Below are positions 6,209 to 27,160 of a DNA stretch of 64,000 nucleotides, piece by piece. The notes below the pieces were generated by a model. It was given only the letters and a program-made list of their open reading frames with translations, was not told the DNA's origin and made no database searches. Numbering within the stretch: position 1 is the first letter of the stretch; each line of letters opens with the position of its first letter. The stretch lies in assembly GCA_024123955.1 (NCBI GenBank), contig CP099652.1:5704001-5768000 (forward strand). The letters are read 5' to 3'. Source of the stretch: Oxalobacteraceae bacterium OTU3CINTB1. Its GTDB lineage: Bacteria; Pseudomonadota; Gammaproteobacteria; Burkholderiales; Burkholderiaceae_D. Made by a program: the position numbers and the translations under genes.

Positions 6209-6296
6209 GAATATTGTCTTGTGAAGCGAAACAAAAACGGCGGAGGCGGCATGTACCGCCCCCGCCGTCATCGAGGAACCATCGTCAGCGCGGAAA

Positions 6297-10865: not shown

Positions 10866-13800
10866 TTAGAACGTGTAGCGCAGTTGCGCGGTGTAGCGGC
10901 GGCCGGTGACGAACCACGCGCGGCCGTTCATGCCGGTCGTCTGCTGCATCAACTGCTTGAACTGCGCGTTGGTCAGATTCTGCGCTTCGAAGCCCAGCGA
11001 CAGGTTGTCGTTGATCTTGTAGTTGATCGAACCGTCGAGCTGACCGTAGGCGTCGGCCCAGGTAGGCAGACCCCAGACGATGTTACGCGCACCCGGCGTG
11101 GCGCTGGCCGGATTGGTATCCACGCCATCGGTGCCCTTGGTGCCGTTGACGTTCACGCCTTGCAAGCTCTTCGAACGCCAGTTGTACGCCAGGCGGCTCG
11201 AGAACGGGCCCTGATCGTAGATCACCGCGATGTTATACGACTGGCGCGACAGGTTCTCCAGCGGCAGGTTGCCGAAGGTGCGGCCGTTGGTGTCGCAACC
11301 GTTGATGTTCAGGTTGACGTTGGCGGCCGACGAATCGCTGCTGCAGTACTCCGAGAAGACGTTCTTGTACAGATCGCGCTTGCTGTCGACGAAGGTGAAG
11401 TTCGCCTGCACGCCCAGGCCGGACAACAGGCCTGGCAGCTTGTCGAAGGTCTGCTGGTAGGCCAGCTCGAAACCGCGCGCATGGCCGCGGGCGCCGTTGA
11501 TAGGACCGGTGGCCGCGAAGTTCTGCAGGTTGCCATTGATGTCCGGCAGCGCGAAGTTGTAGGTCTGGTTGACGATGATGTCTTTCAGACGCTTGTTGAA
11601 CACCGCCAGCGTGAGCGAGCCGACCGGCGAGAAGTACCATTCGGCGGTCAGGTCGAGCTGCTTGGACGTGGTCGGACGCAGGTTCGGGTTGCCCGACGCG
11701 GTGCCGCTCAGGCTAACGTTCGAAACGTTGGTCGCGCCGCCGATGGTGGTGGTGTTGTAGCCGGTCGACAGCGAAGTGTATGCCTGCAGCTGATCGAAGT
11801 CGGGACGCGACATCGCCGAAGCGAAGGCGAAACGGAACTGCAGCGCGTCGGTGGCCTTCAGGCGCAGGTTCAGGCTAGGCAGGAAGTTGTGATAACGGTT
11901 CTCGAAGGTCTGCGCCTGCGCGTACGCGGCGATCACGGGGATCGTCTCGCCGGTGTAGCTGCCCGGCGCCGGCTGGCCCGACGGCGGGTTGTACACGGTG
12001 TAGCCGGCGGCTTTCGAATCGGTCTTCACGTAGCGCAGACCGACGTTGCCGTCGATCGGGAACTTCAGCTCATCCCAGCCGAAGCGCAGCTGGCCGTAGG
12101 CGGCCTGGGTCTTCTCGCTTTGCTGGTTGGTGCCTGCCGGATCGGTGCCGAAGGTGGCCGCTTTCCACGGCGTGCAGGTGCCTGGCTGCGCGCACAGCAG
12201 GTCGTGGTAGGCGTGCAAGGCGGCGTAGCTGTTCGGATAACCCGCCGACGTCGAACTGGCCGGGATGATCAGCGACGGCATGCTCATTCTGCCGTTGAAG
12301 AAATTATCGAAGTTCTTGATGGTGGTGTTGCCGGCGAAGCGCGGATCGCTCAGGAACGCCTCGGACGTGATCTGTCCGGCGCCGGTGCCGACCTGCCATG
12401 GCGCCGAGATGGCGGCCCAGTTGTAGTCCGGGTTGGACTTTTGCGTCACCGCGTCGCGGTCGGTCAGGCGCACGCCGAAACGCAAGTCGCGCAGCACCGG
12501 ATTGTCGAACGAGTAGGTGGCGTCGGTGCGCCATGCGGTTTCCTTGCCCTTGCTGCGGTCCAGGTGCTCCTGGGTGAAGTTCCAGTAGTTGTTGGCCGGG
12601 TTGAGCAGCGCGGCGCGGTCGGCGTCGTTGAAGATCAGGTTGGGCAGCGATCCGGTCAGGTCGAGCTTCTGCGACGGCATCTTGACGGCGGTGGCCACGG
12701 TCGAATCGAGGCTGTCGGTGTTGGCGCGAATGCGCTGCACATCGGTGGTGACGGTCCAGGCGTCGCTTGGACGCCAACGCAGGTTCCACGAGATGTCGGT
12801 GGTGTCCGAATTGCGGGTCGCCGTGCGGTTGTCGTTGCCGAAATCGATGCCGCCGGTGGAGGTCAGGGTGCCGGACATGAAGCGGCCGTTCGCATCATAG
12901 ACGCCGTTGCTCACGCCCAGGCTCGAAACGTTCGCCGCCGAGAAGATCGCCTGCTCGTCCCAGGTCATCTTGTACTTCGATTTGAAGTATGTCAGCGAGC
13001 TGCTTAACGTGCTGTCGAGCTTCCACTGCAAGGCGCCGTACGCGCCTTCGCGCTTGCGGTCGAATTGCAAGGTGCGCCACTGCGCGCCCTTCGGCACATA
13101 GGTGGTCTTGCCGTTGGCGTCGACGAACGGGTAGTACGGCTCGACCTGCAGCGCGTCGGTGCGGGTACCGCTTTCCGAGTAGGCCAGGTCGACCAGCGCA
13201 CCGATTTCGCCGAACGGGGTTTTCCAGCGGTTCGACACCAGGCCGGAATACGACGGCGACTTCTTACCCTTCTTCAGCTCCGAATAGGTGGTCTCTCCGG
13301 AGACGGCGCCATGGAAGCCCTTGTAATCGAAGGGCATCGCGGTGCGCAGGTTGACCAGGCCACCGATGCCGCCTTCGGTCTGTTCGGCCGACGGGTTCTT
13401 GTAAATGTCGACGCCGGCCAGCAGCTCCGGCGGCACGTCGCCGAAGTTGAGCGAGCGGCCGCCGTTGGCGGAGAACGAGTCGCGGCCGTTCAATTCGGAG
13501 CGCACATAGCTCAGGCCACGGATCGATACGCCCGAGCCTTCGACCGAGAAATGCTCCGGATCGCTCTTGGACATGGTGCGGTCGATGGTCACGCCGGCGA
13601 CGCGTTGCAGTACCTCGGTCACCGAGCGGTCCGGCAGCTTGCCGATGTCGTCGGCGGCGATCGAATCGACCACCTCGTCGGAGTTCTGTTTGATTTTCTG
13701 GGCCGACTGCAGCGCCGCGCGCTGGCCGGTGATCACCACCGCCACCGGCTCGGCGGCCGGCGTGGTGGTCGGGGCGGCGGGCGCCGGGGCGGTCTGCGCG

Positions 13801-13874
13801 TGCGAAGCACTGCTGGCCATCATCGCCATTTGGGCCAGGCCCAAAGCGATTGCTGTTTTTTTAAACTGTTTCAT
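10866..13874 (-). CDS. TonB-dependent outer-membrane receptor (xyloglucan oligosaccharide uptake)
   Basis: A 1002-residue receptor of the large oligosaccharide-importing class. Signal peptide (about 1-27), a short Pro/Ala stretch, VVITGQRAALQSAQKIKQNSDEVVDSI at the start of the plug domain, SVTEVLQRVAGVTI and VSIRGLSYVRSELNG in the plug, then the 22-strand barrel ending in the aromatic QLRYTF. Proteins of this type use TonB/ExbBD to bring oligosaccharides into the periplasm. First gene of the receptor-GH35-GH31-GH95-GH2 operon; TTGGAGAGC precedes the ATG. Its substrate is inferred from the downstream enzymes as xyloglucan oligosaccharides released by the secreted GH74. Confidence 0.93.
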   Translation of the reverse strand: MKQFKKTAIALGLAQMAMMASSASHAQTAPAPAAPTTTPAAEPVAVVITGQRAALQSAQKIKQNSDEVVDSIAADDIGKLPDRSVTEVLQRVAGVTIDRTMSKSDPEHFSVEGSGVSIRGLSYVRSELNGRDSFSANGGRSLNFGDVPPELLAGVDIYKNPSAEQTEGGIGGLVNLRTAMPFDYKGFHGAVSGETTYSELKKGKKSPSYSGLVSNRWKTPFGEIGALVDLAYSESGTRTDALQVEPYYPFVDANGKTTYVPKGAQWRTLQFDRKREGAYGALQWKLDSTLSSSLTYFKSKYKMTWDEQAIFSAANVSSLGVSNGVYDANGRFMSGTLTSTGGIDFGNDNRTATRNSDTTDISWNLRWRPSDAWTVTTDVQRIRANTDSLDSTVATAVKMPSQKLDLTGSLPNLIFNDADRAALLNPANNYWNFTQEHLDRSKGKETAWRTDATYSFDNPVLRDLRFGVRLTDRDAVTQKSNPDYNWAAISAPWQVGTGAGQITSEAFLSDPRFAGNTTIKNFDNFFNGRMSMPSLIIPASSTSAGYPNSYAALHAYHDLLCAQPGTCTPWKAATFGTDPAGTNQQSEKTQAAYGQLRFGWDELKFPIDGNVGLRYVKTDSKAAGYTVYNPPSGQPAPGSYTGETIPVIAAYAQAQTFENRYHNFLPSLNLRLKATDALQFRFAFASAMSRPDFDQLQAYTSLSTGYNTTTIGGATNVSNVSLSGTASGNPNLRPTTSKQLDLTAEWYFSPVGSLTLAVFNKRLKDIIVNQTYNFALPDINGNLQNFAATGPINGARGHARGFELAYQQTFDKLPGLLSGLGVQANFTFVDSKRDLYKNVFSEYCSSDSSAANVNLNINGCDTNGRTFGNLPLENLSRQSYNIAVIYDQGPFSSRLAYNWRSKSLQGVNVNGTKGTDGVDTNPASATPGARNIVWGLPTWADAYGQLDGSINYKINDNLSLGFEAQNLTNAQFKQLMQQTTGMNGRAWFVTGRRYTAQLRYTF

Positions 13875-14138
13875 GTTATGCTCTCCAAAAGGTATATGAA
13901 TTTTTCATAGCTCTCAGGCTATTTGTTATTGGTGCTTTTCAGGGGCACTTGGGACTGGCCTGGGGTGGGTGATACCGGACGCGGGACGAACGACGCCCGC
14001 AGGCGCCACAAGGCGCGGTTTTTCGATCTTCATGGATACGTCTCGCTCTTTGATATTTTTTTTCGTTCTGGCTGAACTGGCGGGGTGCCAAGGCCACACG
14101 ATGATATGCAAACATTTTGCAAGTTACGTAAAAGCGTG
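13875..14138 (-). promoter_or_regulatory. Long 5' leader and promoter region of the receptor operon
   Basis: The 264 bases between the putative XylR operator and the receptor start hold no conserved gene. In the direction of the operon I see an A/T-rich stretch near 14,100-14,130 that could contain the promoter, a GCGCC-TTGT-GGCGC hairpin (14003-14016) preceded by A-rich sequence, and a possible 35-codon leader frame. Read on the plus strand the same hairpin is followed by five T and could end stray rightward transcription. No exact -35/-10 pair can be assigned by eye. Confidence 0.4.
13926..14033 (-). CDS. Possible leader peptide (35 residues)
   Basis: A small frame starting ATG at 14033, beginning MKIEKPRLVAPAGVV and ending with TAA 52 bases before the receptor ATG. 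A purine-rich GAGCGAGACG lies 5-14 bases upstream of the start. The peptide is Pro-rich, has no membrane segment and no family I recognise. It overlaps the leader hairpin, so its translation could affect receptor expression. It may equally be a chance frame in a GC-rich leader. Confidence 0.25.
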   Translation of the reverse strand: MKIEKPRLVAPAGVVRPASGITHPRPVPSAPEKHQ

Positions 14139-14162
14139 GCAATTGCGAAATTCACCAAGCGG
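14139..14162 (-). promoter_or_regulatory. Putative XylR operator 1 (receptor operon)
   Basis: Plus-strand sequence GGCAATTGCGAAATTC followed by ACCAAGCGG. It matches the elements at 22058 and 26968 at nearly all positions (CAATT, CGAAA, CACCAAGC), with a further GAATGATA just outside (14164-14171). It lies 265 bases upstream of the receptor start. AraC-type regulators bind such asymmetric elements as direct half-sites. Binding by the XylR encoded at 22150-23379 is inferred from co-location. Confidence 0.6.
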
Positions 14163-14243
14163 CGGAATGATAATCCGCAAGCGTCTCGTACTTTAAACAA
14201 ACTCTTACAAAAACTCGCAGGCAAAACACGGCTGTAAACGACA

Positions 14244-14269
14244 ACGCGGCCCGTCGTTGCGGGCCGCGT
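14244..14269 (-). terminator. Terminator-like hairpin after xylH
   Basis: Perfect 10-bp arms ACGCGGCCCG and CGGGCCGCGT with a 6-base loop, 47 bases after the xylH stop. Followed on the minus strand by TGTCGTTTAC, a weak T-rich tail, so it may be an imperfect intrinsic terminator or a 3' stabiliser. It would close the xylX/B-xylD-xylFGH operon before the next promoter region. Confidence 0.6.
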
Positions 14270-14315
14270 GTTATTGCTGAAACCGGACTCAGCTATCCGG
14301 CTTGGCTATTCAAAT

Positions 14316-15458
14316 TCAACGGCGGCCCGAACGCGTCGCCACATCGACCCACACCGCCAAGGTCAGGATGCAGCCCTTGACGATCATCTGCCAGTAGGTG
14401 TCGACGTCCAGCATCGACATGCCATTATCCAGGCTGGCCATCACCAGCGCGCCGATCAAGGCGCCGTACACAGTGCCCGAGCCGCCGCGCATCGAGGTGC
14501 CGCCGATGAAGCAGGCCGCGATCGCATCGAGTTCGCCCGAGGTGCCGGCCGACGGCGAACCTGCCGCCAGGCGGGCCGTGTTGATCAAGCCGGCCAGCGC
14601 GCACATCAAACCCATGATCCCGAAGATCCACAGCTTCACCGCTTGCACGTTGACGCCGGAAAGACGGGTCGCCTCCATGTTGCTGCCCACCGCGTAGATG
14701 CGGCGACCGAACACCGTTTGCGTGGCGACGTAGCTGAAGATCCCCAGCAACGCCAGCAACAACAGCACCGGCAGCGGAATGCCCTCGTAGCTGTTCAAGG
14801 TGCGCACGAAAGCGAACAACACCACACCGATGGCCGCAAGGCGCAAACCGTCGCGCCACATCGGCGGCACCGGCAGGCCATGGCGGGCCAGGCTCGCGCG
14901 CTGGCGCCAGGTCAGCACCGCGCCCAGGATGAACAGGCCGACGCCCAGCACCACGCCCATTTGCGGCGACAGGTAGCCCTGGCCCAGGTGCACCAGCGGT
15001 TCGGACACCGGAGCCACCGTCACGCCGTCGGTCACGCCCAGCACGATGCCGCGGTAGGCCAGCATGCCGCCCAGGCCCACAATAAACGACGGTATGTGCT
15101 TATAGGCCGTCAGGTAGCCGTTGAACAGGCCAAGCACCAGGCCACAGGCCAGCACCACCGCGACGGTGGCCGGCAGCGGCAGGTGGTGGGTGACGTCGAG
15201 CACCGCCGCCACGCCGCCCAGAAGGCCGAGCAGCGAGCCGACCGACAAGTCGATCTCGCCGGCGATGATGACGAAGGCCATGCCGCAGGCGACGATGCCG
15301 GTGACGGCCATCTGGCGCATCAGGTTCGACAGGTTGCGCGGCGAGATGAAGCCGCCCTCCGTCTTCCAGCTGAAGAAGGCCCAGATGATGGCGATGGCGA
15401 TCAGCAGCGCGAGGATCTTGTACTGCGTGAAGAGCTGTTTGAGATTTATGGTTTTCAT
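14316..15458 (-). CDS. xylH: Xylose ABC transporter, permease XylH
   Basis: A 380-residue inner-membrane permease of the BPD_transp_2 (ribose/xylose) family with about ten hydrophobic segments. ITGIVACGMAFVIIAGEIDLSVGS-like sequence (TGIVACGMAFVIIAGEIDLS) is the hallmark near residue 55, and FIVGLGGMLAYRGI follows. SGVNVQAVKLWIFGIMGL near residue 280 is the coupling-helix region that contacts the ATPase. I start at ATG 15458; a GTG three codons earlier is possible. It pairs with the ATPase and binding protein encoded just upstream to import D-xylose, the monosaccharide released by the periplasmic alpha-xylosidase. Confidence 0.93.
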   Translation of the reverse strand: MKTINLKQLFTQYKILALLIAIAIIWAFFSWKTEGGFISPRNLSNLMRQMAVTGIVACGMAFVIIAGEIDLSVGSLLGLLGGVAAVLDVTHHLPLPATVAVVLACGLVLGLFNGYLTAYKHIPSFIVGLGGMLAYRGIVLGVTDGVTVAPVSEPLVHLGQGYLSPQMGVVLGVGLFILGAVLTWRQRASLARHGLPVPPMWRDGLRLAAIGVVLFAFVRTLNSYEGIPLPVLLLLALLGIFSYVATQTVFGRRIYAVGSNMEATRLSGVNVQAVKLWIFGIMGLMCALAGLINTARLAAGSPSAGTSGELDAIAACFIGGTSMRGGSGTVYGALIGALVMASLDNGMSMLDVDTYWQMIVKGCILTLAVWVDVATRSGRR

Positions 15459-15477
15459 GGAGTTCACAGATAAGTCA

Positions 15478-17004
15478 TCACGAATGATCGAGTGCCGCCG
15501 ACAGCAGCGTTTCCTGGGTCAGGTTCTGGTTGACGAAATCGCCGCGCAGTTTGCCCTCTCCCATCACCAGCACGCGGTCGGACACGCCCAGCACTTCGGC
15601 CAGTTCGGACGACACCATGATGATGGAGACGCCCTGGCTGGCCAATTCCAGCATCAGTTTGTAGATTTCGAACTTGGCGCCGACGTCGACGCCGCGGGTC
15701 GGCTCGTCGAGGATCAGCACCTTGGGGCGCGTCAGCAGCATCTTCGACAGCACCGCCTTCTGCTGGTTGCCGCCCGAGAGCGACGTAATCGACAGGAACG
15801 GGCTGGCCGTCTTCAGGCCCAGTCGCGCGATCTCCTCGCTGACCACCTTGAGTTCAGCCTCGCGGTCGATGCGGGTAAAGTTCGAGAAGCGTCCCAGCAC
15901 CGACAAGGTGATGTTCTGGCCGACGTCCAGGTCGCGCACGATGCCGTGCTGCTTGCGGTCCTCCGGCACCAGCGCCAGGCCGGCGCGGATCGCCTTGAGC
16001 GGCGTGCTGGTATCGATTTTGGCGCCGTTGAGCCAGACCTCGGCTTCCGAGCGGCCCGGATAGGCGCCGAACAGCGCCGACACCAGCTCCGTGCGGCCGG
16101 CGCCGACCAGGCCCGCGATGCCGAGGATCTCGCCCTTGCGCAGCGCGAAGGACACGTTGTCGACCTTCCTGCGTTCCGGCTTCTCGACGTCGTAGCAAAT
16201 CACGTTGCGCGCCTCGAACACGATTTCCTCGCTGGGCGTACGCTCCAGGGTCGGATACAGCTGGTTCATTTCGCGGCCGACCATCTGCGCGATGATCTGC
16301 TTGACGTCCATCTTGTCCATCGGCGTGGTGGCGATGTGCTGGCCGTCGCGAATCACGACGATGGTGTCGCAGATCGCCTCGACCTCGTCGAGCTTGTGCG
16401 AGATGTAGACGCAGGCCACGCCCTTGGCCTTCAGGCCGCGGATAATATTGAGCAGCACCTGGATCTCGGAGGTCGTCAGCGACGACGACGGCTCGTCCAG
16501 GATCAGCAGGCGCGCATTCTTGTTCAGCGCCTTGGCGATCTCGATCAACTGCTGGTGGCCGCCGCCGTAGTTCGACACCGGCAGCACCACGTTGACGTCG
16601 TTCAGGTTCAATTCTTTCAGCAGCGCCTCGGCGCGCTGGTTCATGGCCGAATAATCCATGCGGCCGCCCGGCAAGGTGATCTCGTTGCCGAGGAACAGAT
16701 TCTCGGTGACGGACAGCTCGGGCACCAGCATCAGTTCCTGGTGGATGATAACGACGCCGGCGGCCTCGCTCTCGCGGATCGACTGCGCCCGCAGCGGCTT
16801 GCCGTCGAACAGGATCTCGCCGTCCCAGGTGCCGTGCGGGTAGACGGCGGACAGCACTTTCATCAGGGTCGACTTGCCGGCGCCATTCTCGCCGCACAAG
16901 CCGATGCACTCACCGGCCCTGACTTGCAGGTCGATGCCGTCGAGCGCCGGAACACCGCCAAATTTTTTGACGATGCCCTTCATTTCTAGCAAATAGCCGG
17001 ACAT
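15478..17004 (-). CDS. xylG: Xylose ABC transporter, double ATPase XylG
   Basis: A 508-residue protein with two ATPase halves, as in sugar importers. First half: Walker [10 protein letters not shown], signature YGGGHQQ, Walker [11 protein letters not shown]. Second half: degenerate Walker [10 protein letters not shown], signature LSGGNQQK, Walker [15 protein letters not shown]. The ATG at 17004 ([17 protein letters not shown]) fits the family start; the frame stays open to 17055 without family similarity. GAGAACC precedes the start. It energises xylose import with XylF and XylH; 132 bases separate it from xylF, with a strong hairpin between. Confidence 0.94.
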
Positions 17005-17097
17005 ACTGGTTCTCGCAGAGGTGGTGGAACTCGCCACGCGCAAGCCGCTGCACAATCAGCGGAACGGGGCGTGGCGAAAGACAGTGCGAACGCACGG

Positions 17098-17118
17098 CGG
17101 GGCGTGGACGACGCCCCG
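17098..17118 (-). promoter_or_regulatory. Hairpin between xylF and xylG
   Basis: Perfect 8-bp stem CGGGGCGT/ACGCCCCG with a 5-base loop, 19 bases after the xylF stop and without a T-run. Position and strength fit an mRNA element that protects the upstream xylF message or partly blocks read-through, raising the amount of binding protein over ATPase and permease, as in the maltose and ribose systems. This role is inferred. Confidence 0.6.
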
Positions 17119-17136
17119 GTCTTCATGAAGCGGCGA

Positions 17137-18144
17137 TTATTTCGCGGTCGCGAGTTGGGCCTTGGTATAGAAGCCGTCGGCAACGATGACATCCATATTC
17201 GCCTTGGTCAGCATGGTCGGCTTCAGCAGCAGCGTATCGACTTCTTTGAACCCGTTCTGGTACTTCGAGTTGAAGCCCGGCTTTTCGCCGCGCACCAGTT
17301 GAACCGACAGCTTGGCCGCCTCGGTGGCGATCAGCTTGAGCGGCTTGTAGACGGTCATGGTCTGGGTGCCGGCGATGACGCGGCGCACGCCGGCCAGATC
17401 GGCGTCCTGGCCGGAGACGGCCACTTTGCCGTCCAGCTTTTGCGAAGCCAGCGCCTGGATCGCGCCGCCGGCGGTGGCGTCGTTGGAGGCGACCACCGCA
17501 TCGAGCTTGTTGCCGTTGGCGGTCAGCGCGTTTTCGACGATGGACATCGCTTCGGCAGGATTCCAGTCCTTGACCCACTGCTTGCCGACGACCTTGATAT
17601 CGCCCTTGTCGATCAGCGGCTGCAGCACTTTCAGTTGGCCTTCGCGCAGCATCTTGGCGTTGTTGTCGGTTGGCGCGCCGCCCAGCAGGTAGTAGTTACC
17701 CTTCGGTTTGACGGCGACCACGCCCTGCGCCTGCATTTCGCCCACGGCCTTGTTATCGAAGGAGATGTAGGCGTCGATGTCGGCGTTGAGGATCAGGCGG
17801 TCGTACGAGACCACCTTGATCTTGGCCTTCTTCGCTTCCTTGACGGCGTTGTTCAGCACCGTGGCGTTGTAGGGAACGATGACCAGCACGTCGACGCCGC
17901 GCGAGATCAGGTTTTCGATCTGGGCGATCTGGCGCTGCTCGCTGGCGTCGGCCGACTGCACGAAGACTTTGGCGCCCTGCTTTTCAGCGGCGGCGACGAA
18001 GTAGTCGCGATCGCGCGCCCAGCGCTCGAGGCGCAGGTCGTCGATGGAAAAGCCGATTTTAGGATTCTTGGCGTCCGCCATGGCGTTACCGCCGGCGCAC
18101 ACCATCATGACCGCGATGGCGGCCGCACTCAGTAATTTCTTCAT
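17137..18144 (-). CDS. xylF: Periplasmic D-xylose-binding protein XylF
   Basis: A 335-residue substrate-binding protein with signal peptide MKKLLSAAAIAVMMVCAGGNAMA and the type 1 periplasmic-binding fold. IGFSIDDLRLERWARDRDYF, ADASEQRQIAQIENLI, GVDVLVIVPYN, VSYDRLI and VVASNDATAGGAIQAL follow the XylF pattern. It captures xylose in the periplasm and delivers it to XylGH. AGGAGACG precedes the ATG. About 100 bases separate it from the dehydratase gene upstream; no operator-like element is seen in that gap, so it is probably read from the promoter near 22,050. Confidence 0.94.
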   Translation of the reverse strand: MKKLLSAAAIAVMMVCAGGNAMADAKNPKIGFSIDDLRLERWARDRDYFVAAAEKQGAKVFVQSADASEQRQIAQIENLISRGVDVLVIVPYNATVLNNAVKEAKKAKIKVVSYDRLILNADIDAYISFDNKAVGEMQAQGVVAVKPKGNYYLLGGAPTDNNAKMLREGQLKVLQPLIDKGDIKVVGKQWVKDWNPAEAMSIVENALTANGNKLDAVVASNDATAGGAIQALASQKLDGKVAVSGQDADLAGVRRVIAGTQTMTVYKPLKLIATEAAKLSVQLVRGEKPGFNSKYQNGFKEVDTLLLKPTMLTKANMDVIVADGFYTKAQLATAK

Positions 18145-18245
18145 TTGTTTCGTCTCCTGATTCGAATGCCGTTTTGCCTGACACAGGCCCTACATTTCTA
18201 GCTCGTTACCGTACAGGTCTATGCCTACTTTTACAGATAGTGTTC

Positions 18246-20036
18246 CTAATGATTATGCCGGGCCGGATTATCCGCCACGCCCCGGTATGGTACAGCCAGT
18301 TCCATGCATGCGCCGTTTTCCATTTGGCCCACGGTGCTGCGATAAATCTCCTGCCAGGGCGTCTGGCTGGCCGGGATGGCCGGCAGCGCGCCCTTCTTGC
18401 GTTCTTCCCATTCCGCTTCCGGCACCAGCGCGTCGCAGGTGCCGGCGTTCAGGTCGACGCGGATCATGTCACCGGTGCGCAGCCACGCCAGGCCACCGCC
18501 GACGGCGCTTTCCGGCGACGCGTTCAAGATCGACGGGCTGTCCGAGGTGCCGGACTGGCGGCCGTCGCCGAGCGTCGGCAGCCAGTTGATGCCGCGCTTG
18601 ACCAGCGCGTCGGGCGGTTGCATGTTCACCACCTCGGCCGAACCGGGCCAGCCCACCGGGCCTGCGCCACGGATGACCAGGATGCAGTCCTCGTCGATGT
18701 TCAGCGCCGGATCGTTGATGCGGTTGTGATAATCGGTCGAGCCGTCGAACACCACGGCGCGCGATTCGAACACATTCTCCTGGCCCGGCCTGCTCAGATA
18801 GCGCTCGCGGAAAGCCGGCGAAATCACGCTGGTCTTCATGATGGCGAAGTCGAACAGGTTGCCCTTCAAGACGAAGAAACCGGCATCCTCCTTGAGCGGC
18901 GCGTTGAACGGGAAGATCACTTCGCGGTCCTGCGTCTCTTTGCCCGTGAGGTTGTCGCGCATGGTGCGGCCGGTGACGGTGGCGCGGTCCGAGCGCAACA
19001 TGCCCTGCTGCTCCAGCTCCCACATCACGGCCGGCACGCCGCCAGCGCGGTGGAAACGCTCGCCGAGGAATTTACCGGCCGGCTGCATGTTCAGCAGCAG
19101 CGGCACCTTGTGGCCGTATTCCATCCAGTCGCTCGAATGCAGCTCGACGCCGGCGTGGCGCGCCATCGCGACGATGTGCTGCTGCGCGTTGGTCGAACCG
19201 CCGATGGCGGCATTGACCACGATCGCGTCGAGGAAGGCGTCGCGGTTCAGGATCGAAGAAGGCTTGATGTCCAGCTTTGCCATCTCGACGATGCGGCGGC
19301 CGGTTTCGTACGCCATCTGGCCGCGTTCGCGGTAAGGCGCCGGAATCGCCGAGCAACCGGTCAGCGACATGCCCAGCGCCTCGGCGATGGCGTTCATCGT
19401 CGACGCCGTGCCCATGGTGTTGCAGTGTCCCGCCGACGGCGCCGAAGCGGCGGCGATCTGCAGGAACTTTTCGTTGTCGATGGTGCCGGCGGCCAGCTGG
19501 CGGCGGCCTTTCCAGATCGCCGCGCCGGAACCTGCCAGTTCGCCTTCGAACCAGCCGTCCAGCATCGGACCGCCGGACAGCACGATGGCGGGAATATCCA
19601 CCGTCGATGCGGCCATGATCTGCGACGGCGTGGTCTTGTCGCAGCCGGTGGTCAGGACCACGGCGTCGATCGGATAGCCGTGCAGGATCTCGACCAGGCC
19701 CATATAGGCCAGGTTGCGGTCGATCGCCGCCGTCGGACGACGGCAGTTTTCGAAGATCGGATGCAGCGGGAATTCCATCGCGATACCGCCGGCATCACGG
19801 ATGCCGTCGCGCACGCGCTTGGCCAGTTCCAGGTGGATGCGGTTGCACGGGCTGATATCGCTGCCGCTTTGGGCGATGCCGATGATCGGCCGGCCCGAGC
19901 GCAGCTCTTCCGGCGTGATCCCGTAGTTCATGAAGCGCTCGAGATACAGCGCGGTCATGTCGATGTGGTCCGGGTTGTCGAACCAGTCTTGCGAGCGGTA
20001 GCGGCGTGGCTGCTGGTTGTTCATGTCATTACCCAT
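18246..20036 (-). CDS. xylD: IlvD/Edd-family sugar-acid dehydratase, probably D-xylonate dehydratase
   Basis: A 596-residue dehydratase. Cys residues in DISPCNR, TTGCDKTTPS and AGHCNTMGTAS mark the iron-sulfur cluster site of the IlvD/Edd family; GGSTNAQQH and a C-terminal GDGRQSGTSDSPSI are also family features. It should convert D-xylonate to 2-keto-3-deoxy-D-xylonate (step 3 of the Weimberg/Dahms route); L-arabonate or another aldonate is possible because these enzymes overlap in specificity. I start at ATG 20036, four bases after the stop of the upstream gene. A GTG at 20078 lies inside the SDR coding end and has no support. No strong Shine-Dalgarno is visible, consistent with translational coupling. 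Confidence 0.85.
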   Translation of the reverse strand: MGNDMNNQQPRRYRSQDWFDNPDHIDMTALYLERFMNYGITPEELRSGRPIIGIAQSGSDISPCNRIHLELAKRVRDGIRDAGGIAMEFPLHPIFENCRRPTAAIDRNLAYMGLVEILHGYPIDAVVLTTGCDKTTPSQIMAASTVDIPAIVLSGGPMLDGWFEGELAGSGAAIWKGRRQLAAGTIDNEKFLQIAAASAPSAGHCNTMGTASTMNAIAEALGMSLTGCSAIPAPYRERGQMAYETGRRIVEMAKLDIKPSSILNRDAFLDAIVVNAAIGGSTNAQQHIVAMARHAGVELHSSDWMEYGHKVPLLLNMQPAGKFLGERFHRAGGVPAVMWELEQQGMLRSDRATVTGRTMRDNLTGKETQDREVIFPFNAPLKEDAGFFVLKGNLFDFAIMKTSVISPAFRERYLSRPGQENVFESRAVVFDGSTDYHNRINDPALNIDEDCILVIRGAGPVGWPGSAEVVNMQPPDALVKRGINWLPTLGDGRQSGTSDSPSILNASPESAVGGGLAWLRTGDMIRVDLNAGTCDALVPEAEWEERKKGALPAIPASQTPWQEIYRSTVGQMENGACMELAVPYRGVADNPARHNH

Positions 20037-20040
20037 ATCT

Positions 20041-21993
20041 TTATGCGCCGTACCAGCCGGCGTCGACGAAGTATTCACGACCGGAGCACGCCGAGGCGCT
20101 GTCCGAGGAAAGGAACAGCGTTATCGCCGCCACGTCGTCCACTTGCACGCGCTTTTTCAGGCACTGGCCGGCCAGGATGCGAGCTTCCTCGTCCGGCGTG
20201 TGCCACAGCGCTTCCTGGCGCGGCGTGCGTACGCCACCAGGAATAATGCAATTGACACGGATATTATCAGGTCCAAGATCACGCGCAAGGCCGCGGGTCA
20301 TGCCCTCGATGGCGGCTTTGGCCATCATGTACAGGGTCAGGTCCGGCAGCGCCAGGTGCCACGAGATCGAACCGAAGTTCAGGATCACGCCGCCGCCCTG
20401 CTCGCGCATGCCCTGCGCCACGGCCTTGGCGCAGAAGTATTGGTGGCGCAGGTTGACCGCCATGCGGCCTTCCCAGTATGCCGGCGTGACGTCTTCCAGA
20501 TTGTGGCGGTCGTCGTTGGCGGCGTTGTTGATCAGGATATCGACGGTGCCGATGTCGGCGAAGGTCTTGGCCAGCACGTCGAGATTGGTCAGGTCGCAGT
20601 GCAGGTACTTCGGCGGCACGGCGAGGGTCGACAAGGTCGCCTCCAGCGCGCGCGAATCGGCTTCCGCGATATCGAGGAAGGTCACGCGGGCGCCTTGGCG
20701 AGCGTATGCCTCGACGATGCCGGCTCCGATGCCGCTGCCGCCACCGGTGACGACCACGCGCTTGCCGGCCAGGCTGGGATAGATCGCCTGTTCCGGCTTG
20801 GTCTGCGTAGCCGGTTTCGCGGCCACTGGAGCGGAAGCGCGGGCACGGTTCATCAGCGCGCGCACGCCGTAGGTCCACGGTGCGATCTGGTCGCTGCGCT
20901 GCACGTGGTTGACCAGGGCCCCCAGCGAAGGCGTCGAGATGCTGACACGGTCGCCCAGGTGGTGGGTGAAACCGCCGCCGACGGCGTCGCGGTCTTTAAT
21001 CGGCGAGAACATCGTACCGAGGAACAGCATGAAGCCGTCCGGGTACTGGTGGTGGCGGCCGCACACCTGGCTGACCAGGTCCAGCGGATCGCGGCTGATT
21101 TCGCGCATGCGGCTGGCGCCGGCCAGACGGAAGTCGTCGTCCTGGCCTTCGATCAGCATGCTCACTTCCGCGTTGCGGATGGTGTCGATGGTGAAGTGTT
21201 CGTCGAACAGGCGGATGAACGGGCCGATCGAGCACGAGCCGTTGTTGTCTTTCGCTTTACCCAGCAACAGCGCGCTGCGGCCTTCGATGTCGCGCAGGTT
21301 GACGTCGTTGCCCAGTGTCGCGCCGAGCACCTTGGCCTGGCTGTTGACGGCCAGGACGATCTCCGGCTCCGGGTTGTTCCACTTCGAATCCGGGTGCAGC
21401 CCGACGTCGGCGCCCACGCCGACAGCGGACATCGGCTGCGACTTGGAGAACACCTCGGCGTCCGGGCCGATACCGACTTCCATGTACGGCGACCACAGGC
21501 CGCGCTCGATCAGGTCCGACTTCAGCTTGGCCGCTTCCGGCGAACCCGGACGGATGGCCGACAGGTCGGAACCGATGATGGTCTGGATTTCGGCGCGCAG
21601 GGCGTTGGCGCGCGACGGATCGCCGGCGGCCTGCTCTTCGATCACGCGTTCCAGCAGGCTGACCGCGAAGGTCACGCCGCAGGCCTTGATCGCCTGCAGG
21701 TCGCATGGCGCCAGCAGGCGCGGGATGCCGTCGCCGGCGGCGCCGATGGCGTTTTCCAGCAAGGCCTGAACGGGGCCGAGCGATTCGCCGGGAGCGGAAC
21801 GGGCCACTTCCAGCGCGTCGTCGCGCTCCAGCAAATCGGACATGGTCGGGGCGTGGCCGGTGATGTCGAACACCTCGCCGTTGCGTACGGCGACCACACA
21901 AGGACCATTGATGACGCCATCACGCCATACACGTCCCACCAGCACTGCGCGGCTCACATCGTCCGGCAGCATCGAATTTATATTATTTTCCAA
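20041..21993 (-). CDS. Natural fusion: FAH-family XylX-like dehydratase + SDR XylB-like xylose dehydrogenase
   Basis: A 650-residue two-domain protein. Residues about 1-385 are a fumarylacetoacetate-hydrolase-family domain like 2-keto-3-deoxy-xylonate dehydratase (XylX): metal ligands in NNPEPEIVLAV (about E209, E211) and GNDVNLRD (about D230), and a conserved Lys in LLLGKAKD. After an Ala/Pro-rich linker (about 385-405), residues about 406-650 are a short-chain dehydrogenase: TGGGSGIG, NNAAN, catalytic Ser (about 542) and YMMAK (Y555, K559). Both sites look intact, so one polypeptide may do steps 1 and 4 of oxidative xylose breakdown. TTG at 21993 is chosen because GGAGAG lies seven bases upstream; ATG 21972 is an alternative, and the frame is open to 22020. 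First gene of the operon, behind operator 2. Confidence 0.85.
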   Translation of the reverse strand: MENNINSMLPDDVSRAVLVGRVWRDGVINGPCVVAVRNGEVFDITGHAPTMSDLLERDDALEVARSAPGESLGPVQALLENAIGAAGDGIPRLLAPCDLQAIKACGVTFAVSLLERVIEEQAAGDPSRANALRAEIQTIIGSDLSAIRPGSPEAAKLKSDLIERGLWSPYMEVGIGPDAEVFSKSQPMSAVGVGADVGLHPDSKWNNPEPEIVLAVNSQAKVLGATLGNDVNLRDIEGRSALLLGKAKDNNGSCSIGPFIRLFDEHFTIDTIRNAEVSMLIEGQDDDFRLAGASRMREISRDPLDLVSQVCGRHHQYPDGFMLFLGTMFSPIKDRDAVGGGFTHHLGDRVSISTPSLGALVNHVQRSDQIAPWTYGVRALMNRARASAPVAAKPATQTKPEQAIYPSLAGKRVVVTGGGSGIGAGIVEAYARQGARVTFLDIAEADSRALEATLSTLAVPPKYLHCDLTNLDVLAKTFADIGTVDILINNAANDDRHNLEDVTPAYWEGRMAVNLRHQYFCAKAVAQGMREQGGGVILNFGSISWHLALPDLTLYMMAKAAIEGMTRGLARDLGPDNIRVNCIIPGGVRTPRQEALWHTPDEEARILAGQCLKKRVQVDDVAAITLFLSSDSASACSGREYFVDAGWYGA

Positions 21994-22057
21994 GGTCTCT
22001 CTCTCCAGGCAGGCTAGCAAACTGCGTGGGAGATTTTCACCTTATTCAGGGGTGGGG

Positions 22058-22083
22058 GCAATTACGAAAACCACCAAGCACGG
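22058..22083 (-). promoter_or_regulatory. Putative XylR operator 2 (xylX/B operon)
   Basis: Plus-strand GCAATTACGAAAACC followed by ACCAAGCACGG, in the 156-base gap between xylR and the fusion gene. It matches operators 1 and 3 at CAATT, CGAAA and CACCAAGC, with ATGAT just outside. On the minus strand GAATAAGGTGAAAAT (22034-22048) follows 15-20 bases downstream and recurs almost unchanged before the GH74 gene, so it may be a second half-site or part of the promoter. Confidence 0.65.
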
Positions 22084-22149
22084 TCATGATTTACGCGTAT
22101 TTTGGTCAAATACGTTAAACCCGCACGGTGATCCGCTGCGGGGTGGGGT

Positions 22150-23379
22150 TCAGGCTACGCTGCGCAGGGCGGGTGGCGCGTCCTCCGGCGCGGCCGCCGC
22201 CTCCGGACATTTGAGCATGCGGTCCTGGTAGGCGCGGGGCGTGCAACCCAGCTCACGCTTGAACACCGCGTGCATGTACTGGACAGACGTGAAGCCGCAA
22301 GTCAGCGCCACCTCGGCGATGCTGCTGTCGCCGCGCGCCAGGCGCTCGGTGGCCGCGTCCAGCTTGAAGCGCAGGATCACATCGTGCACGCTGCAATCGA
22401 GCTCCTGGCGGAAGTACGACTCCAGCGACGAGCGCGAAATGCCGACATACTCCGCCACCTGGTGGGTCTTGATGCCCTGGCAGGCGTACTGGCGGATGAA
22501 ATGGCGCGCGCGCATCACGTGCGGATGCTTGGGCGCCTCGTGGCGGGTGGAGGTCTGGACGTTGATGCCGACCGGCGGCACCATCACGCGCGTGCCCTGC
22601 AAGCGCACGCCGTGCAGCATCTGGTCCAGCAGGTGGGCGGCGGTGCGGCCCATCTCCTGGGCGCCCTGGATCACGGAACTGAGCGGAATGCGGGTAAGCA
22701 TGCGCGCCAGTGGATCGTTGTCGATGCCGATCAGCGCCACTTGCTCCGGCACCTCGATATTGGCCATGATGCAGGCCTGCAGCAGCTGGCGCGCGCGGGC
22801 GTCGGTGACGGCGATGATGCCGACCGGCTTGGGCAGGCTATGCAGCCACTTGATCTGCTGTTCGACCGCCTCGTCCCACGAGGCGGCGCTGGTGCCCAGG
22901 CCGCGATAAATCTGCGGCTCCATCTTGTCGTCGGCCATCAGTTTGCGGAAGGCGGTCTCGCGCTCCTGCGCCCAGCGGTTTTCCTGCGCCTCGGGCAGGC
23001 TGAACATGGCGAAATGGCGCAGGCCGGCCTCGATTAGATGATCGTGGGCAAGTTTAATCAGTTTGAAGTTGTCGGTCGCGACATAGGGCACGCCGGTCGG
23101 GTAGTTGGTTTCGCTGGCGTAGGAGCCGCCCACGGCCACCACCGGGATGCGGGTGCGCGCCAGCGCGGCGGCCACGGCCGGATCGTCGAAGTCGGCGATG
23201 ATGCCGTCGCCCTGCCAGTGTTCGATGCCCGGCAGGCGCAGGCGGAAGTCTTCCTCCAGGAACAGATCCCAGGACGCGCGGGTGCTGCTTAAATGCGCGG
23301 CAATACCGGCGATGACTTCGCGGTCAAAAATCTTGTTTGCGTTAAATAACAGCGCAATACGGTGGGACTTCATCGGCAT
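22150..23379 (-). CDS. xylR: XylR-type xylose regulator (periplasmic-binding-like domain + AraC HTH)
   Basis: A 409-residue homologue of E. coli XylR (392 residues). The N-terminal sensor resembles it strongly: HRIALLFNANKIFDREV, WDLFLEEDFRLRL, GDGIIADFDD, VAVGGSYASETNYP, YVATDN and GIIAVTDARARQLLQ. The C-terminal AraC domain (about 295-395) has YVGISRSSLESYFRQELD and VALTCGFTSVQYMHAVFKRELGCTPRAYQ, the two helix-turn-helices. I start at ATG 23379 with GAGG nine bases upstream; a TTG at 23385 is possible. In the known protein xylose binding turns on transcription. It is set directly upstream of the operon it is expected to control, and operators are found before three transcription units here. 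Confidence 0.93.
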   Translation of the reverse strand: MPMKSHRIALLFNANKIFDREVIAGIAAHLSSTRASWDLFLEEDFRLRLPGIEHWQGDGIIADFDDPAVAAALARTRIPVVAVGGSYASETNYPTGVPYVATDNFKLIKLAHDHLIEAGLRHFAMFSLPEAQENRWAQERETAFRKLMADDKMEPQIYRGLGTSAASWDEAVEQQIKWLHSLPKPVGIIAVTDARARQLLQACIMANIEVPEQVALIGIDNDPLARMLTRIPLSSVIQGAQEMGRTAAHLLDQMLHGVRLQGTRVMVPPVGINVQTSTRHEAPKHPHVMRARHFIRQYACQGIKTHQVAEYVGISRSSLESYFRQELDCSVHDVILRFKLDAATERLARGDSSIAEVALTCGFTSVQYMHAVFKRELGCTPRAYQDRMLKCPEAAAAPEDAPPALRSVA

Positions 23380-23511
23380 CTTCAACTACCTCAATCGGAA
23401 ACGGCTCGTCTCATCGCACCCTCTCTGGGATGCGATTTGTATTGTGGCATGATTCCGTCACGATTTAGATGAAAAAGACGTTCCCGTCCGCAAATGAAGC
23501 CATCTATTCGG

Positions 23512-26500
23512 CTATTTTTCTCCTGTCGGAGGGGTAGGTTCCCCAAATACAATGCCTCGGCCGGCCGTACTCATGAAAACGATGCCAAAAGTATTCATGT
23601 CACCGATAACGAATTGGGCATCGCCCGGACCGCCGTATTGATGATCATCGTCATTAATACGTAACCAAGTGGCGCCGCTATCGGTCGAACGGAACACGCC
23701 GCGCACGCCGCCGACGGTGCCCCAGATATACACGGCGGGATAATTGGCGCCCGGCGCGGCCTTGCCGAAGCCTACCGCCGCCGCGTAGCCGACGCCCGGC
23801 AGACTGCTAAAGCTCTTGCCGGAATCGGTCGAACGGGCCAGGCCGGCGTCGTATTGCGGCACCCAGATGTCGCCCTCGCGCCCCGGCGCCGCGCGCAGCA
23901 CCGCGCGCGTGCGCTTGGCCGACGCCAGCGCGCCGGCGGGGGCGAAACTGGCGCCGCCGTCGCTGCTCACCAGCACATGGTCGCCGCCGATGGCGTAAAA
24001 CTTCTTCGCGTCGACCGGATCGGCCACCGGACGGGCGCCGCCCAGGCCCTTGACCGGATTCCAGCTATCGCCGCCGTTGGTGCTGACGTAGCTGGTGTCC
24101 AACTTCTCTGGACTGTGCACGATCGTCTTGCCGTCGGCGCTCAGCGCCAGTTGGCCTTTGGTGCCGTGCATGGCCGCGGTCTTCTTCCAGCTCACGCCCA
24201 TGTCGTGGGAGATGTACATGGCGCTGCCGGCGCGGGCCACCACGTTGGGATTGCCGGCCGCGTAGTCCAGGCCCCAGGTGGTGCCCATGGTCGGCGTGTG
24301 GATCGACGAATATTTGGTCGGATCGGTGTGGCGGAAGCCGTCATAGTCGCCGATCGCCGAGATCACGGGGCCGCCAGGGATGCTGACCAGGTTGAGCGGC
24401 ACCGACTCCTCCAGGCCCTCGTCCTCGAACTTCCAGATCGCCGGCGAGGCGTTAATGTCGGTCGAATTGAAGATGCCGTTGCCGGAGACGACCATCAGCT
24501 TCTTCGTGTCGAAGGGATCGAATTCCACGCTGGCCGCCCAGTGTATGAAGCTGCCGGCGATCCAGCTCACGCCATTGGCGTCGATCTTCACGCCCTGGTC
24601 GACGATGCTCTTCCAGCTTTTGCCGCCGTCCAGCGTCTCGAAGAACTGGTCGCGGATCGCGTTGGTCTGGTTGTGGTAGTAGCTGATGGTGGTGACCACC
24701 ATGCGTTTGGGATTGCCGGGATCGACGGTGATGCCGGCGTAGGCGCGGTTCAGCGGCGGCGAGATGTCGGTCCACTTCTTCGCGGCGATATCGTACTGCC
24801 ACACGCCGCCCTCCTCCAGGCCCTCGCCATGGGCGACATCGCCCCACGGGCCAGCGCCTTTGGCGAACGTCACCACCAGCTTGCCGTCGGCCAGCACCGC
24901 GCGGTGCGGCATCAGCTTGGACGGGCCGCCCGCCATTGCGCTGAAGGTCTTGCCGGCGTCCTCGGACACATACATATTGGCGCCGTCCTTGCCGAAGCGC
25001 GAGACGCCGGCGAACAGGCGCTGCGTGGCGCCATCCTTCATGCTGGACGGATCGAGGACGACAAGACTGACGCCGTTCTTGTTGACCGGCGTGGTGGTCA
25101 CGTCCAGGCCATCGAGACGGCGCCAGGTCAGGCCCTCGTCCACGCTCTTGAACATGCCGTTGGCACGGGTGCCGATGTAGAGGATCTGGCCGTTGGCCGG
25201 ATCGACCTGCAGCTTCTCGCCGTTGCCGCGCCCCATGCCGTTGCCATGCACCTTGAACTGCTGGGTGACGTCGATCTTGGTGAAGGTTTTGCCGTAGTCG
25301 CTGGATTTCAGGATCGCGCTGGCGCCGCCGTTCAAATATTCGATACCGGTCGACATATACACCCGTCCCGGCGTGCCCGGATCGATGGCGATCGACTCCA
25401 CGCCCAACAGGCCGGTCTCGCGGTCCGACACCCAGTCCATCAGCGCGATCCAGCGCTTGTTCGGCGCGTCCCAGCGGTAGGCGCCGCCGACGTCGGTGCG
25501 CAGATAAATCAGCCCCTTCTCGGTTTTACTGGTGATGATGCCGGAGACGAAACCGCTGCCGCCAATGGCCACCGGCTGCCATGCATACGGTGGCGCGGAA
25601 CCCTCGCCCGCCGGCATCAGCTTTTTCAGCTCCGGCGCCAGCGCCCTGGCCCAGATTTCATAGCCCTTTTCGTTCGGATGCAACAGGTCCGGCATGATGT
25701 CGGTCGACAGCGTGCCGTCCGGCGCCAGGAACTGCTGATTGAAATCGGCGAAAAAAACCTTCTTGTTGTCGGCGTAGCCGGCGATGATGGCGTTGACCTG
25801 GTTGTTGATCCGGCGCAGCGGGTCGTTCGGCTTTTCACCGCGCGGGAAGATCGCCAGCAGCAGGATTTTGGTCTCCGGCAGGCGGCGGCGCAACTCCTCG
25901 ATATTGCGCTTGATGCCGGCGGCCGTGGTGTTCGGATCCTCCTGGCGGTGGCCGGTGTTATTGGTGCCGAACATCAGCACCGCGACCTTGGGCGCGATGC
26001 CATCGACCTCGCCATGCTGCAGGCGCCACAGCACGTTCTCGGTGCGGTCGCCGCCGAAACCCAGCGCCAGCCCGTTCATCGGTTTGTAATAGCGCTCCCA
26101 CACGGGCGCGCCGCTCTTTTCCCACCCCTCGGTGATGGAGTCGCCGATGAAAACGATCTGGTTCTTTTTGCCCAGCGCCTTGGCCTCCTCCAGCTTTTTC
26201 TCGTGGCGCGGCGTCCACCAAGCGATCGACCACGATTCATTCAACTTGTCCGGCGTGACCGACACAGTCTTGTAGTCCGGGCAGCTGGCGTTCGGCTTTC
26301 CGCTCCTGAGGATCTTGATGTTGGCGACGGCGATTTCGCCGGTGCCGGTCCCCTCGACCGCGAACGGCCGCACCACCTTGCTGAAATCGTCGCCGTCGCG
26401 CGCGAAGCAGCTCATCGCAAACACCAGATGCCGCCAGCCCTTGCCCGCCGCCTCGCGCCCCGGCAGCACGTATGGCACGCCGCGCTCGCAATTTTCGCCG

Positions 26501-26910
26501 CAGCCGACCTTGAAATTGATGCCGCCGTTGGCCAATTCCTTGACGTTGACGTCCAGCGCCAGCACGCCCTTGGCCATGTAGGGACGCAGGTCGAGCGGCT
26601 GCTTGCCGCCATCGATGCGCAGGCTGGCGTACCAGGTGTCCTTCCATTGCAAGGTCAGCGCGTCATCGGCCTTCTTCATGTCGGACTTGCTGACAGTTAC
26701 GCTACCGTTCGGCGACTTGTTGGCGGGCGCGATGACGGCGCTGGCGCCCTCAAGCGTTTTCTGCGTGTCGGAATCGGCGACGGCGGCCTGTAAGGAGCCG
26801 AGCGGGCGGGCGCTGTAAATATTGAGTTCGTTGGTCGGCGCGCCTGCGCCTGCCTGGGCGGCGCAGGCGAGCGCGATGGCGGCAAAGGTCCGCCGATGGG
26901 TGATCGTCAT
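23512..26910 (-). CDS. Secreted three-domain protein: ExoP-like galactose-binding domain + SGNH esterase + GH74 xyloglucanase
   Basis: An 1132-residue protein starting at ATG 26910 (a GTG at 26940 would spoil the signal peptide). Signal peptide about 1-23. Residues about 27-225: beta-sandwich with GWRHLVFAMSCFARDG and VVRPFAVEGTGTGEIAVANIKI, like the C-terminal galactose-binding-like domain of ExoP-type glucanases. About 226-432: SGNH hydrolase with FIGDSITEGW (Ser258), GFGGDRTENV, MFGTNNTG and MPDLLHPN (D408, H411). About 440-1132: GH74 seven-bladed propellers with RTDVGGAYRWD (base about D473) and GDYDGFRH (acid), plus repeated S-x-D-x-G-x-T/S-W turns. It should cut the xyloglucan backbone outside the cell, while the esterase could remove acetyl groups. 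It stands alone behind operator 3. Confidence 0.9.
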   Translation of the reverse strand: MTITHRRTFAAIALACAAQAGAGAPTNELNIYSARPLGSLQAAVADSDTQKTLEGASAVIAPANKSPNGSVTVSKSDMKKADDALTLQWKDTWYASLRIDGGKQPLDLRPYMAKGVLALDVNVKELANGGINFKVGCGENCERGVPYVLPGREAAGKGWRHLVFAMSCFARDGDDFSKVVRPFAVEGTGTGEIAVANIKILRSGKPNASCPDYKTVSVTPDKLNESWSIAWWTPRHEKKLEEAKALGKKNQIVFIGDSITEGWEKSGAPVWERYYKPMNGLALGFGGDRTENVLWRLQHGEVDGIAPKVAVLMFGTNNTGHRQEDPNTTAAGIKRNIEELRRRLPETKILLLAIFPRGEKPNDPLRRINNQVNAIIAGYADNKKVFFADFNQQFLAPDGTLSTDIMPDLLHPNEKGYEIWARALAPELKKLMPAGEGSAPPYAWQPVAIGGSGFVSGIITSKTEKGLIYLRTDVGGAYRWDAPNKRWIALMDWVSDRETGLLGVESIAIDPGTPGRVYMSTGIEYLNGGASAILKSSDYGKTFTKIDVTQQFKVHGNGMGRGNGEKLQVDPANGQILYIGTRANGMFKSVDEGLTWRRLDGLDVTTTPVNKNGVSLVVLDPSSMKDGATQRLFAGVSRFGKDGANMYVSEDAGKTFSAMAGGPSKLMPHRAVLADGKLVVTFAKGAGPWGDVAHGEGLEEGGVWQYDIAAKKWTDISPPLNRAYAGITVDPGNPKRMVVTTISYYHNQTNAIRDQFFETLDGGKSWKSIVDQGVKIDANGVSWIAGSFIHWAASVEFDPFDTKKLMVVSGNGIFNSTDINASPAIWKFEDEGLEESVPLNLVSIPGGPVISAIGDYDGFRHTDPTKYSSIHTPTMGTTWGLDYAAGNPNVVARAGSAMYISHDMGVSWKKTAAMHGTKGQLALSADGKTIVHSPEKLDTSYVSTNGGDSWNPVKGLGGARPVADPVDAKKFYAIGGDHVLVSSDGGASFAPAGALASAKRTRAVLRAAPGREGDIWVPQYDAGLARSTDSGKSFSSLPGVGYAAAVGFGKAAPGANYPAVYIWGTVGGVRGVFRSTDSGATWLRINDDDHQYGGPGDAQFVIGDMNTFGIVFMSTAGRGIVFGEPTPPTGEK

Positions 26911-26967
26911 TAAGCTGTCTCGTACCGATAGTATTTTCACCTATTCTGCGAGCAGCAAAGAGCCGCC

Positions 26968-26991
26968 GCAATTGCGAAAATCACCAAGCGG
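26968..26991 (-). promoter_or_regulatory. Putative XylR operator 3 (GH74 gene; divergent hydrolase)
   Basis: Plus-strand GCAATTGCGAAAATC followed by ACCAAGCGG, then GAATGATA (26994-27001). Fifty-eight bases upstream of the GH74 start. It is the closest match to operator 1. The minus-strand element GAATAGGTGAAAAT (26934-26947) lies downstream, as at operator 2 but about one helical turn further away. The region also separates GH74 from a divergent alpha/beta hydrolase, which could share control. Confidence 0.65.
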
Positions 26992-27160
26992 ACGAATGAT
27001 ATTGGCCGCACCGGTGGCGGCGCCTCACTCTTTCGGGTGTAGGCCGGCGCCGCGCGCCGGCATACGCTGTGCCGTCTTAGCGCCGCGGCGACGCAATCCG
27101 TCACGGCATCCATTCACCCGCCGCCGGCATCCAGAACCGTCGGCATTCCAGGAGCCCACC

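Follow-up and report, generated by a model that had tools for sequence, protein, structure and literature searches.

The window analysed here is a stretch of 64,000 nucleotides from an Oxalobacteraceae soil bacterium with a Duganella-like genome. It carries three minus-strand units, i.e. a TonB-dependent receptor gene with four glycosidase genes, a xylXB-xylD-xylFGH operon, and an esterase-GH74 fusion gene with xylR behind it (Table 1). The TonB receptor, the GH31, GH35 and GH95 enzymes and the endo-xyloglucanase together mark a xyloglucan utilization locus at the level of protein families, and all our substrate assignments are by family only. A 36-bp element lies in front of each unit. One xylose-sensing activator, XylR, appears to switch on xyloglucan cutting, uptake and early xylose use together, from predicted promoters that lie both within this locus and elsewhere in the genome.

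Our computational searches demonstrate that the motif exists, that it keeps a fixed geometry relative to the predicted promoters, that it is conserved, which genes it precedes across the genome, and that it occurs together with XylR. Three copies of CAATTRCGAAANNCACCAAGCNNNNNMATGATW start on the plus strand at 14140, 22059 and 26969, all in the same orientation and each 5' of a different minus-strand unit. Each copy opens with CAATTRCGAAA, holds CACCAAGC exactly two bases later, and has an ATGAT block further out at a fixed distance. An earlier note on this DNA had described these shared parts, including the outlying ATGAT, and they are present as it said, except that CAATTRCGAAA begins one base after the positions given there. 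Read on the minus strand, toward the genes that it would govern, the element is WWATCRTT-N8-TTGGTGATTTTCGYAATTGC and is 36 bp long; we read its WTCRT and TTCRY blocks, 22 bp apart, as a putative imperfect direct repeat. The core pattern, with 19 specified positions, has three matches in the window at up to three mismatches versus a mean of 0.02 in shuffled sequence. We also built a scoring matrix from 138 sites in relatives, leaving the window out but including close kin. The three elements score 50-58 bits with this matrix. No other site in the window exceeds -0.5, and the highest score among 60 windows simulated with a first-order model was 7.2 bits.

Each element overlaps the -35 box (TTGCNN) of a predicted promoter, and the -10 box follows after a 17-bp spacer. 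This -10 box was not used for selecting the 138 training sites and is nevertheless conserved among them (A in 125, A in 130 and T in 124), these sites coming from related genomes and hence not being independent. An operator that lies upstream of the -35 box and overlaps it is the class II layout of AraC-type activators. A site covering the -35 box could serve a repressor too, and XylR might then silence these promoters without xylose rather than activate them. We consider this improbable, since the element extends upstream and leaves the spacer and the -10 box free, the -35 and -10 boxes match the consensus poorly as in activated promoters, and XylR of Escherichia coli and XylRA of Vibrio are reported to be activators (PMC8534289, PMC12125979; these papers and those below are cited from excerpts).

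The XylR encoded at 22150-23379 has an N-terminal XylR/periplasmic-binding domain and a C-terminal AraC-type helix-turn-helix domain, it shares 47% of its residues with E. coli XylR, and its gene adjoins the xylXB-xylD-xylFGH operon. Across 80 XylR sequences including that of E. coli, 94 alignment columns are invariant. The kin of this protein, drawn from named genomes (best 80 of 443), belong mainly to Duganella, Massilia, Pseudoduganella, Rugamonas, Janthinobacterium, Collimonas and Undibacterium, and the XylR of Duganella sp. CF517 is 99% identical to it. We regard the 36-bp element as very probably the operator of this XylR, a prediction made from sequence.

We examined 294 genomes of the family, in which XylR was called at E 1e-30 or better and the refined motif at no more than two mismatches. 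XylR occurs in 96 of them and the motif in 94. The motif is found in 91 of the 96 genomes with XylR versus 3 of the 198 without it, and 195 genomes have neither (Fisher test, 1.5e-65); within the genus of the window the numbers are 20 of 20 versus 0 of 6 (4.3e-6). Both tests ignore the relatedness among the genomes, so that the counts do not come from independent trials. XylR and the motif occur together in genomes of nine genera, and a tenth (g15) has two XylR genomes without the motif. In all 34 genomes of two other genera (g27 and g29) that have both, the sole site lies 124-253 bp away from the frame of XylR. The motif is well supported as a XylR-linked element because of this co-occurrence and because of the single site adjoining xylR in two genera. 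XylR could still be a bystander to some other regulator that binds the motif; given the distribution just described and the lone site beside xylR, we reject this as very unlikely. We likewise reject, as hardly conceivable, that the motif arose by chance or marks a mobile or repetitive element, since the operator and the -10 box are conserved across sites while the spacers differ, and the reversed pattern has no match in any of the 294 genomes.

The regulon predicted from these sites extends far past the three units in the window. A scan of this genome and its relatives had been proposed in the earlier note, and at up to three mismatches the full pattern gave, in the whole genome, the three perfect copies and one copy at three mismatches (reversed control 0), the core pattern nine places versus one in the control, and the refined pattern 14 sites versus 0 in the reversed control. 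Eleven of these 14 sites lie beyond the window, two of them weak. They precede, respectively, a GH74-CBM2 gene, a TonB receptor gene about 0.3 kb on, a gene for a 761-aa protein (weak site; L210:1192-3477, no Pfam or NCBIfam match), a GH31 gene, a GH97 gene, a GH2 exo-beta-galactosidase-like gene, a GH27 gene with a BD-FAE esterase gene (weak site), a CE2 gene, a GH42 gene, a second xylR, and a tryptophan-halogenase-like gene followed by a GH29 gene. As a raw count, and including the two sites whose first gene is the halogenase-like gene or xylR, 13 of the 14 sites fit a regulon for plant-wall sugars. A -10 box of the type NNNAAT or CAAACT stands at 17 bp in 12 of the 14. The enzyme set, with alpha-xylosidase, beta- and alpha-galactosidase types, fucosidases, an esterase and GH74, would suit fucogalacto-xyloglucan. 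The earlier note had joined only the three units of the window under XylR: the idea of one regulon with XylR as its probable regulator holds, from the co-occurrence and the lone site beside xylR, and its extent was drawn too narrowly. One further core-pattern match, at C1:2356491 (L078), was set aside as a chance match; it is absent from the refined 14, the best full-matrix score in its locus is -22, and no carbohydrate-active enzyme was found behind it.

Several observations weigh against assigning the element to this XylR, besides the relatedness of the genomes. Five genomes with XylR have no site (G014, G054, G125 with a XylR 43% identical, G193 and G275), and three with the motif have no detected XylR (G002, G083 and G159). 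The sites before the GH27 gene and the 761-aa gene have the lowest full-matrix scores, 10 and 20 bits, and no -10 box. In the xylA-xylF region of E. coli the matrix finds nothing convincing (best score -15.5), which may reflect divergence of the operators and speaks against an operator conserved across the XylR family, so that the matrix gives no way of linking the element with the E. coli sites; a likeness picked by eye was dropped. The genome also encodes a second XylR (C1:2729528-2730706), 75% identical to that of the window and with a similar DNA-binding domain.

It is possible, though we consider it unlikely, that the sites are shared by this second XylR or are mainly its own. The two proteins fall in sister clades in a tree of 80 rows, the window XylR among 24 members and the second among 21. 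The locus of the second XylR (L197:6874-14047) holds GH42, the tryptophan-halogenase-like gene and the GH29 fucosidase gene, and its three predicted sites, before GH42, before the second xylR itself and before the halogenase-like/GH29 pair, resemble those of the window. However, sites persist in relatives in which only one XylR, of the window type, was detected (nine in G089, four in G040 and six in G188), and the XylR of the window is encoded by the adjoining gene and accompanies the three sites. The XylR encoded in the window is the more probable regulator of the three units, with the second XylR as a possible co-regulator.

The site number per XylR-bearing genome is one in three other genera, apart from one genome without a site, and ranges from 1 to 14 in the genus of the window. 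Three genomes (G177, G283 and G289) have 13-14 predicted sites each, and their clusters near another XylR (L145, L146 and L152) look like loci for plant-wall degradation. We compared 23 loci of the XylR clade besides the window, counting sites at up to three mismatches. A site stands before esterase/GH74 in all 23, before the TonB receptor in 22, and before XylXB or XylB in 19, and at the four loci lacking this middle site neither XylB nor XylX was called. Nine loci have both XylX and XylD, and among the others ten have XylB with XylF or XylFGH, three have XylF alone and one has none. The gene calls come from a simple caller, and the absences may include misses. From these retention counts, the oxidative link is variable and the link between digestion and uptake is steady.

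This bears on the claim of the earlier note that the chain runs up to central metabolism. The window operon encodes, by its sequence, the early oxidative steps only: XylB is assigned by an equivalog model, and XylD and XylX by family-level match. These would supply the xylose dehydrogenase, xylonate dehydratase and 2-keto-3-deoxyxylonate dehydratase of the Weimberg pathway, which further calls for a lactonase and an alpha-ketoglutarate semialdehyde dehydrogenase. Using the operon genes of a relative as queries, we found the best xylonolactonase-like homologue (53%, with one TGA inside the matched frame) at L215 and two aldehyde dehydrogenase homologues (59 and 58%), all of them only candidates for these functions, elsewhere in the genome and none near any of the 14 sites. 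So early oxidative genes do lie behind a site, but the full chain was overstated, and 14 of the 23 clade loci lack XylX or XylD beside XylR.

Table 1. Genes, predicted operators and predicted promoters of the locus, in window coordinates
Feature	Position	Strand	Remarks
GH2 beta-galactosidase-like enzyme	1092..4121	-	PF02836/PF02837; open reading frame overlaps GH95
GH95 alpha-L-fucosidase	3860..6271	-	PF22124; PDB kin 7znz, 7kmq
GH31 alpha-xylosidase	6297..9173	-	best PDB kin 2xvg, alpha-xylosidase Xyl31A, E=0; PA14 match just under Pfam cut-off
GH35 beta-galactosidase	9198..10844	-	NF051902 just above cut-off; best PDB kin 3u7v, 7kmn, 5jaw Bgl35A
TonB-dependent receptor	10866..13874	-	1002 aa; PF00593/PF07715, TIGR01782
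Predicted promoter 1	14114..14142	-	-35 TTGCCA, 17 bp, -10 CAAAAT; -35 overlaps operator 1
Predicted XylR operator 1	14139..14174	-	56.3 bits, perfect pattern match; before TonB receptor-GH35-GH31-GH95-GH2
XylH-type permease	14316..15467	-	PF02653; all NCBIfam matches below cut-off
XylG, D-xylose ABC transporter ATPase	15478..17055	-	TIGR02633 above cut-off
XylF, D-xylose binding protein	17137..18144	-	TIGR02634 above cut-off
XylD, IlvD/Edd-family sugar-acid dehydratase	18246..20078	-	PF00920, NF009560
XylX-XylB fusion	20041..21972	-	PF01557, NF053674; PDB 9kkt over residues 14-392
Predicted promoter 2	22033..22061	-	-35 TTGCCC, 17 bp, -10 GAAAAT
Predicted XylR operator 2	22058..22093	-	50.0 bits, perfect pattern match; before xylXB-xylD-xylFGH
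XylR, periplasmic-binding-like ligand domain and AraC-type DNA-binding domain	22150..23379	-	PF22177, PF13377, PF12833; PDB 4fe7 (E. coli XylR), E=1.7e-113
Exop_C and GDSL esterase domain fused to GH74 endo-xyloglucanase	23512..26910	-	Pfam; PDB 6p2l over residues 456-1132
Predicted promoter 3	26943..26971	-	-35 TTGCGG, 17 bp, -10 CAGAAT
Predicted XylR operator 3	26968..27003	-	58.1 bits, perfect pattern match; before esterase-GH74, xylR behind

Some gene models need comment. The longer reading frames of xylXB and esterase-GH74 would begin no later than the predicted transcription start, and we therefore judge the later ATG starts likelier (21972 over TTG 22020, and 26910 over GTG 26940); the true start of the GH2 gene is probably later than that of its reading frame. 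In the PDB search the GH31 enzyme has the Xyl31A entries 2xvg, 2xvk and 2xvl first, followed by 7kmp and BoGH31A. The XylX-XylB protein joins an FAA-hydrolase-type domain and a D-xylose 1-dehydrogenase in one polypeptide; such a fusion is seen in 9 of the 23 clade loci, and the two are separate genes in the Janthinobacterium loci. GDSL esterase and GH74 are fused in 7 of the 23, are two adjoining genes in 13, and GH74 was uncalled in 3. We had considered the esterase domain as CE20, like that of Xanthomonas, and rejected this; the PDB search matched its residues 241-450 to GDSL proteins of the PAF-acetylhydrolase type, and hence we claim no CE family. Genes for a GH43 beta-xylosidase-type enzyme and an MFS transporter (28092-31024) adjoin the locus on the same strand, as in many relatives, with no predicted site of their own within the window.

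We propose the following mechanism. The GH31 enzyme would free xylose from the xyloglucan side chains, and the xylose would enter through XylFGH and bind the ligand domain of XylR. XylR would sit like a class II activator, with the end of its operator overlapping the -35 box of a weak promoter, and in its xylose-bound form would recruit RNA polymerase at the receptor unit, at xylXB-xylD-xylFGH and at esterase-GH74, and would act in trans at about ten further promoters. XylR may also raise its own level by being read on from the GH74 side, because about 130 bp separate xylR from the GH74 gene before it and no strong terminator was found in this gap; the one terminator-like hairpin there is weak (five pairs), no more than expected by regional chance. 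We infer the binding, the activation, xylose as the effector and the autoregulation alike.

Control of polysaccharide digestion by a xylose-sensing XylR is already known for xylan in Vibrio. XylRA of Vibrio strain EA2, which acts over the beta-1,3-xylan xul locus, binds xylose by isothermal titration calorimetry and its operators by electrophoretic mobility shift assay in vitro, and the excerpt of this 2025 paper calls polysaccharide control by monosaccharide sensing uncommon (PMC12125979). The two systems are alike in having a XylR-type activator, xylose being the effector in Vibrio, and several operators, and in running from digestion through xylose catabolism. The Vibrio system, however, deals with beta-1,3-xylan through an isomerase pathway and ABC/MFS import in one locus (PMC12125979), whereas here we see xyloglucan, a TonB receptor, oxidative enzymes and scattered promoters. 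E. coli XylR, which responds to xylose and activates xylAB and xylFGHR, shares domain architecture, the 47% identity (PDB 4fe7) and the linked xylFGH, but it serves two divergent operons with no adjoining polysaccharide genes according to the excerpt (PMC8534289).

The earlier note contrasted the locus with that of Cellvibrio. Cellvibrio japonicus does have a TonB transporter with GH31, GH35 and GH95 and, by PDB kin, close enzymes, but its GH74 is encoded elsewhere and not induced, and the excerpt mentions no xylose operon or XylR (PMC5816542). So the contrast is right for Cellvibrio and incomplete otherwise, since Xanthomonas already pairs xyloglucan genes with adjoining genes for xylulokinase and isomerase, and xyloglucan oligosaccharides induce them together (PMC8245568). 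The Xanthomonas locus likewise has GH74, GH31, GH35, GH95, an esterase and TonB transporters beside its xylose genes, but these are isomerase/xylulokinase rather than oxidative genes, and a XylR of this type is not named in the excerpt; the X. oryzae XylR listed in the references of that paper is LacI-type. A 2024 review, as excerpted, names regulators for xylan and arabinan and none of this type for xyloglucan (PMC10766802), and among the open-licence PMC matches listed we found no account of a XylR xyloglucan regulon in Oxalobacteraceae.

A further comparison is with Janthinobacterium, where the motif heads xylX-xylB-xylD-xylFGH-xylR in 13 of 14 loci, the fourteenth being cut inside the operon. 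All 24 XylR-bearing genomes of genus g6, which we take as Janthinobacterium from the agreement of G123 and L191 in coordinates, have a single site each, and the 21-kb loci have no xyloglucan genes attached. We think it fairly probable that in the Duganella group a one-site, self-linked xylose regulon of Oxalobacteraceae became a genome-wide master regulon. With about a dozen promoters it would serve the complete breakdown of fucogalacto-xyloglucan under the control of a free monosaccharide and, in the present genome, of two XylR paralogues with overlapping operators. A single sugar signal would tie extracellular plant-wall digestion to central metabolism. For AraC-type XylR proteins outside the gammaproteobacteria the predicted element offers an operator that is precise and open to testing, and the graded series of genomes, from one site up to 14, lets the growth of a sugar regulon into a polysaccharide regulon be watched.

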